Of a stretch of DNA of 64,000 nucleotides, positions 25,397-32,583 are shown one piece after another. Within the stretch, counting starts at the first letter, position 1; each line of letters starts with the position of its first letter. The stretch is from Fibrobacter succinogenes (lineage in GTDB: Bacteria; Fibrobacterota; Fibrobacteria; Fibrobacterales; Fibrobacteraceae). The DNA is taken from NCBI GenBank assembly GCA_902756345.1, contig CACVQR010000004.1:310001-374000 (forward strand). Direction: 5' to 3'. Position numbers and translations under genes: made by a program. The notes under the pieces were generated by a model that made no database searches, was not told the origin of the DNA, and worked only from the letters and a program-made list of their open reading frames with translations.

Positions 25397-26149
25397 TTAC
25401 TTTCCAGCGATTTCCCTGGCCTTCGCCTCGATTTCGGCGATGGCTTTTTTGCGGCCTTCGGCGGAGTCTTCGTTACCAAGCACAATGTTCACGAACACGG
25501 ATCCAGCGACCACGGCATACACATGCTTGCAGAGCACCTTGGATTGCTCTCCATTGCGGATACCGAAGCCGCCGAGCACCTTCGCGCCCCCCTTACCAAC
25601 CGTGTCAATAAAGTCGAGCGTCGCCTGGTCAATGGTGGTTTCGCTACCGGTCGTGCCTGCGCGGAGAGCGGCATAGATGTACTTGAAACCCTTGGAAGCC
25701 ATCGTTTCAAGGCGTTCCTTGGTCATGGAAGGTGCCGCGACCGGAATGTTTTCGAGGCCGTGCTTCTTGCAAGCTTCAGTCAGGCCTTCGTCGCCGTCGA
25801 ACGGCAAGTCCGGAATGATGCAAGCGGAAACGCCCACGTCCTTGCACATCTTGACGAAGTTTTCGACGCCGGGCGTAAAGGCGAGCGAGCCGTAAGTCAT
25901 GATGTAGATGGGCGTTTCGGGGTGGCGTTCGTGAATTTTTTTCACGATTTCGAGGCCCTGCTTGGTGGAGTAACCCTTATCGAGCGCAATGGTCGATGCC
26001 GTCTGAATGGCTGGACCGTCGGCGCTCGGATCGCTGAAGGCAAGCTGGATTTCAAGGATGTTCGCGCCACCCCTCACAAGAGCGTCGGCGATGGCGATAG
26101 AAGTTTCTGCGTCCGGAAATCCGGCAATGAGATGAGACATTAAGTTCAT
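25397..26149 (-). CDS. trpA: Tryptophan synthase alpha subunit
   Basis: TrpA splits indole-3-glycerol phosphate into indole and glyceraldehyde 3-phosphate and passes indole to TrpB. The catalytic Glu is in LEIQLAFSDPSADGPAIQ and the catalytic Asp in FSDPSADG. The phosphate-binding C-terminal part is GGFGIRNGEQ and VVAGSVFV. At 250 residues it lacks the first about 17 residues of the E. coli enzyme: the protein starts MNLMSHLIAGFPD, at the first beta strand. I see no better upstream start. It follows trpB across a repeat array of about 80 bp. Confidence 0.92.
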   Translation of the reverse strand: MNLMSHLIAGFPDAETSIAIADALVRGGANILEIQLAFSDPSADGPAIQTASTIALDKGYSTKQGLEIVKKIHERHPETPIYIMTYGSLAFTPGVENFVKMCKDVGVSACIIPDLPFDGDEGLTEACKKHGLENIPVAAPSMTKERLETMASKGFKYIYAALRAGTTGSETTIDQATLDFIDTVGKGGAKVLGGFGIRNGEQSKVLCKHVYAVVAGSVFVNIVLGNEDSAEGRKKAIAEIEAKAREIAGK

Positions 26150-26187: not shown

Positions 26188-26268
26188 AGTAGGAAGTAGG
26201 AAGTTAGAAGTAGGAAGTGGAATACGGGACATCACTGTCTACTGTCTACTTCCAACTGTCTACTACTT
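26188..26268. repeat. Short-word repeat array between trpB and trpA, with inverted arms
   Basis: The left arm is AGTAGGAAGTAGGAAGTTAG-type. The right arm is CTGTCTACTGTCTACTTCC-type. GGAAGTAG and CTACTTCC can pair, so the trpBA mRNA would carry a hairpin here. Confidence 0.7.
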
Positions 26269-27588
26269 ATTCATTATCTCCGCGTCGTGGATGTCCTCGT
26301 TGTTTTCGAGGCGCTTGAGTTCGGCCTTCAGGAATTCCTTCCACTTTTCGGGGCGGAACACGGGGCTTGTAATAAAGATGTCCTTGTCGCCGCGGCCACT
26401 CATGTTGATGACGAGCGCCTTGTCCTTCGGAAGTTCCTTCGCAATTTTCATGGCGGCAGCACCCGCGTGAGCGCTTTCGAGCGCGAACAGAATGCCTTCG
26501 TTGCGGGCAAAGAACTTCACCGCTTCCAAAGCTTCCTTGTCGAGAATCGCCGTGAATTCTACGCGGCCGGATTCGCCGAGGGCGGCAAGCTGCGGGCCGA
26601 TTCCCATGTAGTCAAGCCCCGCCGAGATGGAACGGGTCGGCAGCGACTGACCGTCTTCATCAATCAGGAAGCGGCTCTTGTAACCCTGCAAAATACCTTC
26701 GCGGCTGGCGTTACCCGTCATTCGGGCGGCATTTTCACCCTTGTTCGGGCCGATGCCACCGGCTTCGGCACCGATCAGGCGCACGTTCGCATCGTTGATG
26801 AACGGAGTGAAAACGCCGATGGAATTGCTACCGCCACCCACGCAGGCGACAACCGCCGCGATGTCGATGTTACGTTCGGCAGCCTGACGCTTGACCTCTT
26901 CGCCGATAATCGACTGGAAGGTGCGAACGATATCCGGGAACGGAGCCGGACCGAGAGCGGAACCCAGCACATAGTGGGTATTCTTGAAATTCGTAGCCCA
27001 GTCGCGCATGGCTTCGTTCACAGCATCTTTAAGGGTGCGGGCACCACTCGTGACCGGCACGACCTTGGCACCGTACATTTCCATGGTCGCCACGTTCGGC
27101 TGCTGACGGCGCACGTCCACCTCGCCCATGTACACCACACATTCGAGGCCAAGCTTGGCGCAAGCGGCAGCCGTCGCAAGGCCGTGCTGACCGGCACCAG
27201 TCTCTGCAATGATGCGGGTCTTACCCATCTTCTTAGCGAGCAGGCATTGACCGATGGCGTTATTGATCTTGTGCGCACCCGTATTGGCAAGGCCTTCCAG
27301 CTTGATGTAAATCTGAGCGCCACCCAACAGTTCCGTTGCCGTCGGAGCGTAATACAGCGGAGTCTCGCGCCCAATGTAATCGCGCTGGATGATGCGGAGC
27401 TCTTCGAGGAATTCCGGATCGTGAATGTACTTGTTAAAAGCCGCTTCGAGGTCGTCGAGCGGGCGGCGGATGATTTCGGCAACATACTTGCCGCCGAACT
27501 TGTCAAAGAAACCGTTGTCAGAGGTTATGGGGAGTGAGGTCGCGCCTACGGCGCTTTGAGGTGTGGGGGTTATAGTTGCGTGAGTCAT
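26263..27588 (-). CDS. trpB: Tryptophan synthase beta subunit
   Basis: TrpB joins indole and serine to make tryptophan with PLP. The 441-residue protein has the PLP-lysine motif NTGAHKINNAIGQ, AETGAGQHGLATAAACAKLGL, the phosphate-binding VGGGSNSIGVF and the end motif SGRGDKDIF. Length fits TrpB1 with an N-terminal tail of about 25 extra residues. It is the first gene after a 5' leader with an 18-residue Trp-rich peptide and an attenuator hairpin (27637-27664). No ribosome site is obvious before the ATG. Confidence 0.95.
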   Translation of the reverse strand: MTHATITPTPQSAVGATSLPITSDNGFFDKFGGKYVAEIIRRPLDDLEAAFNKYIHDPEFLEELRIIQRDYIGRETPLYYAPTATELLGGAQIYIKLEGLANTGAHKINNAIGQCLLAKKMGKTRIIAETGAGQHGLATAAACAKLGLECVVYMGEVDVRRQQPNVATMEMYGAKVVPVTSGARTLKDAVNEAMRDWATNFKNTHYVLGSALGPAPFPDIVRTFQSIIGEEVKRQAAERNIDIAAVVACVGGGSNSIGVFTPFINDANVRLIGAEAGGIGPNKGENAARMTGNASREGILQGYKSRFLIDEDGQSLPTRSISAGLDYMGIGPQLAALGESGRVEFTAILDKEALEAVKFFARNEGILFALESAHAGAAAMKIAKELPKDKALVINMSGRGDKDIFITSPVFRPEKWKEFLKAELKRLENNEDIHDAEIMNK

Positions 27589-27636: not shown

Positions 27637-27664
27637 AAAGGCCTTCGGGAGTCCGAAAGCCTTT
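27637..27664 (-). terminator. trpB attenuator terminator hairpin
   Basis: On the minus strand a 12-bp stem (27664-27653 with 27648-27637, one G-U) has a 4-base loop and is followed by AATTTTTTA. It lies between the leader peptide stop and trpB, where attenuators stop transcription when Trp is plentiful. Confidence 0.8.
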
Positions 27665-27676
27665 TACAAAACACTT

Positions 27677-27750
27677 GATGAAATCAGCAAAACGGACTCT
27701 ATTTAGTAGAGCCCCACCACCAACGGTTGAAACGGATTGCTGAATTCATC
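27677..27750 (-). other. Leader RNA pairing segments and stop-codon hairpin of the trpB leader
   Basis: The segment covering codons 2-7 of the leader peptide (27750-27737) is complementary at 13 of 14 positions to 27690-27677. Between them GGGCTCTA and TAGAGTCC form a hairpin over the leader stop codon. A ribosome stalled on the three Trp codons would break both structures, so they are candidates for the switching helices of attenuation. Confidence 0.55.
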
Positions 27751-27755
27751 TTCAT
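27699..27755 (-). CDS. trpL: Tryptophan leader peptide of the trpBA unit, 18 residues with Trp-Trp-Trp
   Basis: The peptide reads MKMNSAIRFNRWWWGSTK and carries three tandem Trp codons at positions 12-14. A terminator hairpin follows and then trpB, the classical layout for ribosome-mediated attenuation. There is no Shine-Dalgarno: the ATG lies 7 bp after the -10 box, so translation probably starts on a leaderless 5' end. The trpE unit has a leader peptide of the same length and build. Confidence 0.85.
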   Translation of the reverse strand: MKMNSAIRFNRWWWGSTK

Positions 27756-27762
27756 GCGCCCT

Positions 27763-27791
27763 AATTTAGGAATGTCTCTTTAGTGTGGCAA
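27763..27791 (-). promoter_or_regulatory. Promoter of the trpBA leader
   Basis: Minus strand: TTGCCA (27791-27786), 17 bp, TAAATT (27768-27763), 7 bp, ATG. The -35 is part of the longer element CTGAACCCCTTGCCA (27800-27786), shared with the trpE promoter (14 of 15) and, in its core, with the LysR promoter. Confidence 0.75.
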
Positions 27792-27803: not shown

Positions 27804-27839
27804 AAAAAAAGTGAAGACTCTCGACGATCGAGAGTCTTC
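27804..27839 (-). terminator. Strong terminator of the small upstream trp-related transcript
   Basis: GAAGACTCTCGA (27813-27824) and TCGAGAGTCTTC (27828-27839) make a perfect 12-bp stem with a 3-base loop. Seven U follow on the minus strand (27810-27804). Confidence 0.85.
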
Positions 27840-27841
27840 TG

Positions 27842-27931
27842 TTAAACACTTGATGAAATGGCAAGCCTAAATCCCTCCTTGAGAACCTCGTCGATAGCGG
27901 CGCTAGCGTCAAAGCGGATTGCCAATTTCAT
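27842..27931 (-). CDS. Possible 29-residue peptide inside the small upstream transcript
   Basis: The frame reads MKLAIRFDASAAIDEVLKEG and then nine more residues to a TAA just before the terminator. Its ATG aligns with Met3 of the trpB leader peptide, and AIRF is shared. The ATG is about 6 nt from the predicted transcript start, with no Shine-Dalgarno. It may be a translated peptide or only a remnant. Confidence 0.4.
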   Translation of the reverse strand: MKLAIRFDASAAIDEVLKEGFRLAISSSV

Positions 27932-27943
27932 CTTTATGTCTTC

Positions 27944-27972
27944 AATATATATACTAATTCGTTGTCTGTCAA
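27944..27972 (-). promoter_or_regulatory. Near-consensus promoter of the small trp-related transcript
   Basis: TTGACA (27972-27967), 17 bp, TATATT (27949-27944). This is the best sigma70-type match in the window, suggesting strong expression. Confidence 0.75.
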
Positions 27973-29833: not shown

Positions 29834-31399
29834 CTAGCGAAAATTTTTCTTAAGCGCGTCGAACAACGCGCTTATTTTTTCTGCATTTTTTATTCCCGGG
29901 GCGTCTTCGACACCGCTGGAGACATCGACCAGTTCGGGGAGGAACTTTTCGACAATCCCGCACACATTTTCGGGCGTGATGCCGCCGGCAAGCCAGAGCG
30001 GCAACTCGCCTGCTTTTTCGCGGAGCAGGTTTTCGGGAATGGTCTTGCCCGTGCCGCCAGGGGTTCCTTCGACTTTGGCATCTAAGAGAATGCGCGGTTC
30101 GCCGTTCTTGCGAAGGGCGGCGACCTTGTCGAAATCGGATTCTTCGCCAACGCGGGCGGCACAATAGTATGCCAGATCGCTTCGCATTTCGTGCTCGCGA
30201 TGACGTTCAAGATTCGAGGGATCAACTCCATGAAGCTGCACTGCATCAAGCACTCCTTCGCGAGCGAGCTTGATGGCGGTTTTGCCTTCAACGGATTCGG
30301 GATCGGTGATGACTCCGACGAGGAGAGGAGATCCTTCGACTCCGTTTGCACTGCGCTCAGGATGACACACGCGAATCTTTTCGGCAAAACTGCGCACGAA
30401 TTCTTCAGTGGTCAGGCGCTTGGTAGTGCTGAACACGAATCCAAGCATGTCAGCACCAAGTTCTGCGGCGAGCAAGCCGTCTTCTTCGCGCGTGATGCCG
30501 CAGATTTTCACGAGGGGGCGATTTTCGGCGCGTTTTGCAGCCTTACGTTCGGCGTATTTTTTCCAGAACTTGCCGCGGGCATTTTCGGAGCCCGATTCAA
30601 ACGCATGCACCACTTCTTTAGCAAGCGGAGGATTCTTGGCAACGGCCTCGCCCACCAGGATTCCCGTGAAGCCGAGGTTGCGGGCATAAGTCGCATCGGC
30701 CGGGCATAAAATTCCAGATTCAAAAATAGCCTTCGCCGGAAGCTTGCTACGCACCGATGCCGGCACCAGCGGGTCTGTATGGAAGGTTGCCAAATCGCGA
30801 GAATTCACGCCCGCGACAATCGTCTTGGCAGCGGCGTCACCCAAAGCATCGGTCACGACTTTCAGCTTGCGCAAGTCGTCAGTTTCGCGGACTTCCACAA
30901 AGGCCTGCATATCAAACGATGCAGCACGCTTCGCCATGCGTACAAGCTGCTCGTCATCCAGAATGCGCGCAATCAAGAGCACTGCATCGGCACCGCAACG
31001 GTAAGCAATATCGATTTCATCTTCGAATAAAAGAAAATCTTTGCGAAGTACGGCGCAGGCATGCAAGCCCTGCTTGCGGCGGCTTTCCATCAGGTTCGCC
31101 ACGGCAATCAAGTCATGCAGCGTTCCCTTGAAAAAATTCGTTTCAGTAAGCACTGAAACCGCCTGCGCATGAGCCTCGGCATAAGTCGTCGCAAGCCCTA
31201 CCGGATCGAGATCCGGCGCGATATCGCCCTTCGAAGGCGATGCTCGCTTGACTTCGAGAATCGCACCGGCATTTCCGAGAAATTCGGTATGGCCGCCACG
31301 GCGCTTTTCGGGAATCTCGATTCCGAAATTCAGGCCAAGCCGCTCGATATCCTCGCGGCGCATCCGTACGATTTTCGCTAAAATGTCTTCGCTCATCAA
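29834..31399 (-). CDS. trpCF: Fused indole-3-glycerol-phosphate synthase / phosphoribosylanthranilate isomerase
   Basis: Residues about 1-270 are TrpC (ILEVKRASPSKGDIAPDLDP, VLRKDFLLFEDEIDIAYRCGADAVLLI, FTGILVGEAV). Residues about 293-521 are TrpF (VKICGITREEDGLLAAELGADMLGFVF, LDAVQLHG, LAGGITPENV, DVSSGVEDAPGIKN). The fusion does the two steps between phosphoribosylanthranilate and indole-3-glycerol phosphate. Two segments of the TrpF half, residues 345-357 (CHPERSANGVEGS) and 399-408 (RHREHEMRSD), are translated pieces resembling dispersed intergenic repeats. They fall in loops between core strands. The gene overlaps the permease stop by 4 bp. Confidence 0.92.
   Translation of the reverse strand: MMSEDILAKIVRMRREDIERLGLNFGIEIPEKRRGGHTEFLGNAGAILEVKRASPSKGDIAPDLDPVGLATTYAEAHAQAVSVLTETNFFKGTLHDLIAVANLMESRRKQGLHACAVLRKDFLLFEDEIDIAYRCGADAVLLIARILDDEQLVRMAKRAASFDMQAFVEVRETDDLRKLKVVTDALGDAAAKTIVAGVNSRDLATFHTDPLVPASVRSKLPAKAIFESGILCPADATYARNLGFTGILVGEAVAKNPPLAKEVVHAFESGSENARGKFWKKYAERKAAKRAENRPLVKICGITREEDGLLAAELGADMLGFVFSTTKRLTTEEFVRSFAEKIRVCHPERSANGVEGSPLLVGVITDPESVEGKTAIKLAREGVLDAVQLHGVDPSNLERHREHEMRSDLAYYCAARVGEESDFDKVAALRKNGEPRILLDAKVEGTPGGTGKTIPENLLREKAGELPLWLAGGITPENVCGIVEKFLPELVDVSSGVEDAPGIKNAEKISALFDALKKNFR
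30175..30204. repeat. Repeat fragment inside trpF (second)
   Basis: GATCGCTTCGCATTTCGTGCTCGCGATGAC-type sequence, matching the widespread bacterial intergenic words GCTTCG...CTCGC-ATGAC. It encodes RHREHEMRSD in frame. Confidence 0.6.
30329..30367. repeat. Repeat fragment inside trpF (first)
   Basis: On the minus strand TGTCATCCTGAGCG ... GTCGAAGGATCT matches the left arm of the intergenic repeat at 22179 (TGTCATCCTGAACG ... GTTGAAGGATCT). It encodes CHPERSANGVEGS in frame. Confidence 0.75.
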
Positions 31400-32583
31400 T
31401 TTCCCTTAGGCTTCAAAGTCAAGGTTTTTGAGAAAAGATAGGAAATTATGGCCGATGCCAGGATAGAAAGAAGCGTAGGGCCAAGTATTACAGAATCCAT
31501 GTGCGACGTGACTTGGTAAACGGCAAAGCCAACCAACCATGCGAACAAGTTCAAAATCCAGTACTTGTGGCCCACCTGGTGATTTTTCGCCAAGAAGAAC
31601 GACACCAAAAGCACAGCCGCCATCGGGGCAAACACCGAAGCTATAAGGTAAAGGAAGCTGATATAATGTTCCATAATACCCGAAATGGCAAGGACCGCGC
31701 TGATACCGCTCACCACGACACCCGTGATTTTTGGGTTCAGCTTATGGACAATGGCCTTGGCCGATTCGCCGGCAGAGTTCGCCGCCAAGAAGTTGGTGGT
31801 CACGGTCGAAAGCACCACGATAATGATTCCCGGAATTCCAAGGCCCGCCAGCAGAATGGCGCGGGCGATATCGTTACCAACTCCGGCCGTTGCAATCTGA
31901 AGCCCGATAAAGTACATCCAGAAGCTTGCCACCGAGTACGCAATCGCAGAAACCGCCGTGGCACGCGTCGGCTTTTCGACATCTTTGGTGTAGTCCGAAA
32001 TCACCGGCAACCAGGAAAGCGGAAGCGCCATCGAAATTTCAAAGATATTCCAGAAGCTCAGCGCATGTTCTGCGGCGGGCGCCCCCGAAATTCCGACACC
32101 GAACAATTTCGCCGTAAGCACAATCAAGAGCACCGTCAGAACAGCCATCACGGCCGTCGTCACTTTCGCAAAACGGCGGAGCCCGACAAAAACCCACACC
32201 GCAATCAGCACCGCAAGAATCACGCAAGTGAGCGGAAACGAAATCGGGAGATTGAGGCCCGCCAACACCGAGGCCCCCTGCGCATTCAGCACGGCAATCC
32301 ATGCAATCAACTGGAACAGGTTCAGCGAGGCAAAGAACTTGGAACCGTAAGAGCCGTAAACAGACGCTGTCGTTTCCATGGCGTTCAGGCGGACACGGGC
32401 ACCGATGAGACCCACGAAAAACAGCAAGATGCCGCCCAGGACATGGCCCAAAATCAGCGGGAGCCAAACGGAATCGTAAGAGGATGCCGCGCCGATTTCA
32501 ATACCTGCCTCGATTTCAGAAACCGAGATTGCCACCCCAAACCAGATGACACCATTCGTTAAAAGATTCGTGCGTTTTTCCAC
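31396..32583 (-). CDS. NCS1-type permease (CodB/CytX-like) in the trp cluster
   Basis: The 395 residues hold about 12 hydrophobic segments. The start (NGVIWFGVAISVSEIEAGIEIGA) and the middle (SWLPVISDYTKDVEKPTRA) match nucleobase:cation symporter-1 members such as cytosine permease and the CytX group. It lies between a LysR-type regulator and trpCF, with a 4-bp overlap to trpCF. So it should be co-expressed with tryptophan synthesis. The transported compound could be a pyrimidine, or an aromatic pathway compound if the genomic context is meaningful. I cannot decide. Confidence 0.75.
   Translation of the reverse strand: MEKRTNLLTNGVIWFGVAISVSEIEAGIEIGAASSYDSVWLPLILGHVLGGILLFFVGLIGARVRLNAMETTASVYGSYGSKFFASLNLFQLIAWIAVLNAQGASVLAGLNLPISFPLTCVILAVLIAVWVFVGLRRFAKVTTAVMAVLTVLLIVLTAKLFGVGISGAPAAEHALSFWNIFEISMALPLSWLPVISDYTKDVEKPTRATAVSAIAYSVASFWMYFIGLQIATAGVGNDIARAILLAGLGIPGIIIVVLSTVTTNFLAANSAGESAKAIVHKLNPKITGVVVSGISAVLAISGIMEHYISFLYLIASVFAPMAAVLLVSFFLAKNHQVGHKYWILNLFAWLVGFAVYQVTSHMDSVILGPTLLSILASAIISYLFSKTLTLKPKGN

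Follow-up and report, generated by a model that had tools for sequence, protein, structure and literature searches.

What is the short unit that precedes trpL in Fibrobacter succinogenes, with ends like those of the trp leader? It lies in the window, as we call the whole 64,000-nucleotide stretch analyzed here (positions 310,001 to 374,000 of contig CACVQR010000004.1, assembly GCA_902756345.1), whose numbering is used throughout. The initial annotation took the unit for an RNA or peptide acting in trans and born by duplication of the attenuator. From its sequence, the most likely reading of the element is a non-coding RNA gene that descends from trpL.

Promoter, terminator and predicted transcript

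The element has a promoter on the minus strand (27944-27972), with a -35 box TTGACA at 27972-27967, a -10 box TATATT at 27949-27944 and a 17-nt spacer, GACAACGAATTA, between them; the consensus is matched at 11 of the 12 positions. Transcription is predicted to start at 27937-27936 and to end at an intrinsic terminator (27804-27839, minus strand) made of a hairpin of 12 perfect pairs with a 3-nt loop (27839-27813) and seven T at 27810-27804, giving an RNA of about 133 nt. Both signals are at the positions given in the initial annotation, and they support the separate transcription unit proposed there; that the element is transcribed we infer from these signals. The promoter string occurs once in the genome of the window and is thus not a promoter common to other genes.

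Across the genus the -35 region and the preceding TTTACAAAAA are conserved at the element promoter, as is the spacer, which on inspection is similar in all of the listed sequences, while the spacer of the trpL promoter varies between the same genomes. In each of the 51 copies a T-rich tail follows a terminator hairpin with a dG of -14 to -23. The terminators themselves vary widely among relatives whose bodies are nearly identical, and those of G005 and G002 are wholly different despite such bodies, so that the new terminator noted initially is not a mark of recent birth.

Structure of the element

The structured domain covers 95 nt (27842-27936, minus strand) and has, in the minimum free energy (MFE) fold, a closing stem (P1) and two inner hairpins, followed by a linker. 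On the same strand, the 5' arm of P1, GATGAAATTGGCAATCC (27916-27932), has GATGAATTCAGCAATCC as its counterpart in trpL, and the 3' arm is GGCTTGCCATTTCATC (27852-27867). The predicted single-stranded linker, AAGTGTTTAACA (27840-27851, minus strand), contains a stretch, AAGTGTTT, that is identical in trpL. The body with its terminator has an MFE of -48.6 kcal/mol (z -4.85, with 0 of 200 shuffles as good), in agreement with the earlier statement that the long-range pairing is retained. The copies keep the linker CATCAAGTGTTT as well as the promoter with its spacer, the closing stem and the terminator.

Over 39 distinct sequences, 96.8% of the P1 pair cells keep a standard pair, compared with 93.2% in shuffles and 17-50% with slid partners. 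Two pairs are changed on both sides (25 cells), and G-U/A-U changes occur at other pairs. This covariation amounts to moderate evidence for the structure, since half of the pairs are invariant and the alignment, in which the trpL of G079 makes up one of 49 rows, was fitted to the same structure. The inner fold is not uniform: among 41 distinct sequences it is a three-way junction in 24 and a rod in 16, and this difference between two sequence types counts against the explanation that we favor below.

Relationship to trpL and the trp attenuators

The trpL promoter (27763-27791, TTGCCA-17-TAAATT) has a -35 box that begins 12 nt past the T-tract of the element. The trpL leader peptide MKMNSAIRFNRWWWGSTK (27699-27755) is probably leaderless, with its ATG 7 nt after the -10 box, and the trpL terminator (27637-27664) has its antiterminator partner in the upstream 1:2 hairpin (27714-27694). 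The first gene behind trpL is trpB (26263-27588; this and the preceding features are on the minus strand), and trpA follows at 25397-26149. Elsewhere in the window, a cytosine/purine-family permease gene (31396-32583, minus strand) between a LysR regulator and trpCF may encode a transporter of aromatic amino acids or indole.

Element and trpL match at both ends (5' GATGAA..GCAATCCG, 3' ATTTCATCAAGTGTTT) and differ in insert and terminator, as first described. The string TTTCATCAAGTGTTT occurs exactly twice in the 3.36-Mb genome, once in each. A covariance model, R1, built from 13 copies of the element with trpL left out of the training set, detects trpL in 52 genomes, with E values of 3.7e-5 to about 1e-15. 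Because R1 was made from the element alone, this detection indicates that the element and trpL are homologous, with common ancestry. It also upholds the claimed kinship with the trp leader, and the claimed lack of Trp codons is confirmed, there being no run of TGG in the 41 distinct element sequences.

A long stem, in which the start of the leader frame pairs with the segment that follows the 1:2 hairpin, is common to the Fibrobacter trp leaders. Lineages without the element keep the same stem in other letters (G018, folded; G009 and others, by eye). The window has a second trp attenuator before trpE (about 37254-37126, minus strand), with the leader MMNFVTCTTLNRRWWRGL, a TTGCCA promoter, a terminator and what by eye seems to be the same closing stem. 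The version of the stem in the element is more perfect than those in the trp leaders, as would be expected of a sequence that need not code.

Distribution in Fibrobacter

The R1 search took in 80 Fibrobacter genomes within a class of 126. There were matches in 55 of the 80, of which 50 have the element and five (G012, G042, G053, G083 and G089) have trpL only; the element is present as 51 copies with 41 distinct sequences. The 46 genomes of other genera of the class had no R1 match. A DNA search with the element and trpL matched 17 of 41 genomes, all from one genus. A pattern search over 84,980 species returned many chance matches, and among the matches listed and fetched R1 kept only Fibrobacter contigs. 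The search of other Fibrobacter suggested in the initial annotation, which had allowed that all close relatives might lack the element, thus found it widely, and its retention in 50 of 80 related genomes makes a function of some kind probable.

All 51 copies are at the trp locus. The structured domain is followed by trpL at 88-148 nt in 30 genomes, 16 copies are separated from trpL by 0.65-3.4 kb, and the remaining copies are at contig ends or beside a damaged trpL. A mobile or multi-copy element is ruled out by this constant location and by the single copy per genome, two being found in G006. The latter form a tandem pair on a single contig (L039, 2798-2886 and 3552-3640), spaced 750 bp apart.

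The trpL segment CATCAAGTG is present in 46 of 47 genomes that have the element and in none of seven that do not. On a trpB tree this link comes down to three independent pairs, all concordant (p 0.25), many forks of the tree being weakly supported and possibly reflecting recombination; for this reason the association of the element with the trpL linker may be joint inheritance of one DNA stretch. Several genomes (G007, G060, G011, G062, G017, G074 and others) lack a close trpB match, having just a distant homologue with about 33% identity. It may be that trpBA was lost in several lineages of Fibrobacter, although some of those genomes are incomplete.

The trpB tree also suggests loss of the element in several lineages, as would be expected of a neutral remnant of a duplicated attenuator. 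Such a remnant is nevertheless very unlikely, given that the promoter, P1 and linker stay fixed in the same genomes in which the trpL promoter spacer varies freely.

Tests for an attenuator and for a peptide

The pairing of each body with the 5' arm of its terminator was compared with that of shuffled bodies. The mean z for this antiterminator was -2.24 in trpL, at a constant position, and -0.18 in the element, at scattered positions; the terminator of the element in the window likewise has no upstream antiterminator partner. Because the antiterminator is absent, unlike in trpL, the element is not an attenuator. An attenuator for another amino acid is ruled out by the missing antiterminator together with an unstable reading frame. 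No Rfam family scored above its gathering threshold anywhere in the window, and at the element there was no match even at E values up to 1.

The 29-residue frame of the initial annotation, MKLAIRFDASAAIDEVLKEGFRLAISSSV (27842-27931, minus strand), does exist in the window. It is limited to this genome and one relative (G010), and we do not consider it a gene. Frames from ATG or GTG in the 41 distinct sequences are 2, 9, 15, 18, 21, 27 or 29 codons long or lack a stop. A peptide product, as had been envisaged, does not fit orthologue frames that range from MK followed by a stop to no stop at all. That the element is a small mRNA for the 29-residue peptide is therefore hardly credible, even though all 41 distinct sequences have an ATG or GTG at the stem start. 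Against it are the frame lengths and the sequence ATGAAATGA read in G041 and G067. Moreover, A or G at the start position also preserves an A-U or G-U pair of P1, so that the stem alone explains the kept start codon.

The ribosome-dependent trpL before trpBA (27755-27637) and its counterpart before trpE are homologous to the element in closing stem, linker and leader-then-terminator layout; in contrast to them, the element has no Trp codons, kept frame or antiterminator pairing. Taken by itself, the proposal that the element is a free-standing RNA gene is well supported on sequence evidence, and we hold it to be very probable.

The DHH neighbor and a possible role in cis

Between the element and the trpL that comes after it, 14 genomes have a lipoprotein gene that encodes DHH and DHHA2 domains, and some have two. 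The gene has the same direction as the element, and the match to it starts within 250 nt in 12 of the 14. In G003, G010, G020, G041 and G092 it starts about 15 nt past the terminator stem, and the T-tract is broken (TTTCTTATATTTAT). On L031 (2823-4176), and also on L032 and L033, the 3' end of the DHH-DHHA2 lipoprotein gene between element and trpL overlaps the trpL promoter. No such gene is present in the window genome.

With the DHH gene downstream in 14 genomes, an origin of the element as a leader is possible. The main rival to a gene of its own is accordingly a cis unit, which we regard as a serious alternative of less than even probability: the element would be the former leader of the DHH-DHHA2 lipoprotein gene, or a second trpBA promoter, the gene having been lost in some lineages while the leader stayed, and the terminator would now insulate the probably leaderless start of trpL from read-through. 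The codirectional gene is consistent with this, as are the invariable position at the trp locus and the end of the T-tract just 12 nt ahead of the trpL -35 box. In G095 (L098, about 2480-2330) trpL is short of about 50 bp, including the -10 box and start codons; this would leave the element promoter as the sole possible source of trpBA transcripts, but it could be an assembly fault. The cis unit is harder to reconcile with the 30 genomes in which no DHH gene stands between element and trpL and yet promoter, P1 and terminator are intact, a persistence that argues for a role of the element itself. The absence of an antiterminator means that the RNA does not itself switch read-through, and for a plain insulator the promoter and P1 would be superfluous.

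Possible action in trans

The initial annotation also suggested that the RNA could pair with trpL RNA. Swapped P1 arms could in principle do so: the 5' arm of the element with the 3' arm of trpL gives -16.6 kcal/mol in the window, compared with -16.9 for the own arm of trpL, and the element arm is the better one in G013, G014, G001 and G008. Once both RNAs are folded, however, their net binding in the window comes to only -2.6 kcal/mol and is no better than with shuffled trpL, as 17% of the shuffles match it; only two of eight genomes beat all shuffles. Direct action of the element on trpL RNA in this way is improbable.

The complementarity tests covered the trp-locus mRNAs of the window and trpL, and none of the pairings was specific. 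Pairing of the linker with the trp mRNA start regions of the window was not above shuffles. The 5' region of trpGD was rejected as a target since its co-fold gain of -9.9 kcal/mol was equalled by shuffled versions of the element. Antisense targets of TTTCATCAAGTGTTT were likewise rejected, with 15 near matches versus 10 for a reversed-pattern control, and none of six near matches inspected was at a plausible start region.

Because direct pairing with trpL or the trp mRNAs is not favored, we prefer a partner shared through stem and linker. Duplication of a trpL attenuator would have given rise to a self-contained non-coding RNA gene, about 133 nt long and probably transcribed strongly and terminated constitutively. 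Its RNA would present in trans the closing stem and linker (CAUCAAGUGUUU) that it has in common with trpL to a putative partner of both, which may be an RNA-binding protein, a ribonuclease or another RNA, and would act as a decoy or companion of trpL. We give this whole explanation, of an autonomous trpL-derived non-coding RNA gene acting in trans as decoy or companion, an even chance; the decoy step in it is a guess. The more specific proposal, that the duplicated attenuator retained its stem and linker after losing both Trp sensor and switch, and that its RNA regulates trp expression in trans by imitating trpL toward a partner of both, is tentative and on balance doubtful.

The nearest known system is rnTrpL of Sinorhizobium meliloti, which is produced from an attenuator, targets trpDC in trans and is accompanied by the peptide peTrpL (PMC7298713). 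Like the predicted RNA of the element, it is a terminated RNA of trp attenuator origin, and the S. meliloti trpL is at or near the 5' end of its RNA (leaderless), as the Fibrobacter trpL seems to be (PMC7298713). rnTrpL acts in trans, whereas trans action of the element is a guess. Furthermore, rnTrpL is the own terminated product of the attenuator, with Trp codons and a functional peptide (PMC7298713), while the element is an additional gene, distinct from the attenuator, that lacks Trp codons, an antiterminator and a conserved peptide and has no target among the trp mRNAs tested. Rli51 and Vsr217 are small RNAs derived from 5'-UTRs and resemble the element in coming from a leader region; they sit in the leader of the gene that they precede (PMC11394854, PMC8265627), whereas the element has a promoter and a terminator of its own, separate from those of trpL.

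Within its partial coverage, a literature search found no description of a separate attenuator-derived gene of this type and nothing relevant on Fibrobacter trp leaders or small RNAs. The phylum, which includes major rumen cellulose degraders, is one with almost no studied RNA regulation. Attenuator RNAs are usually regarded as waste, or else as products that have a further task. If our reading is true, a separate gene grown from an attenuator, present in about 50 species with its parent adjoining, would show the birth of new regulatory RNA genes.
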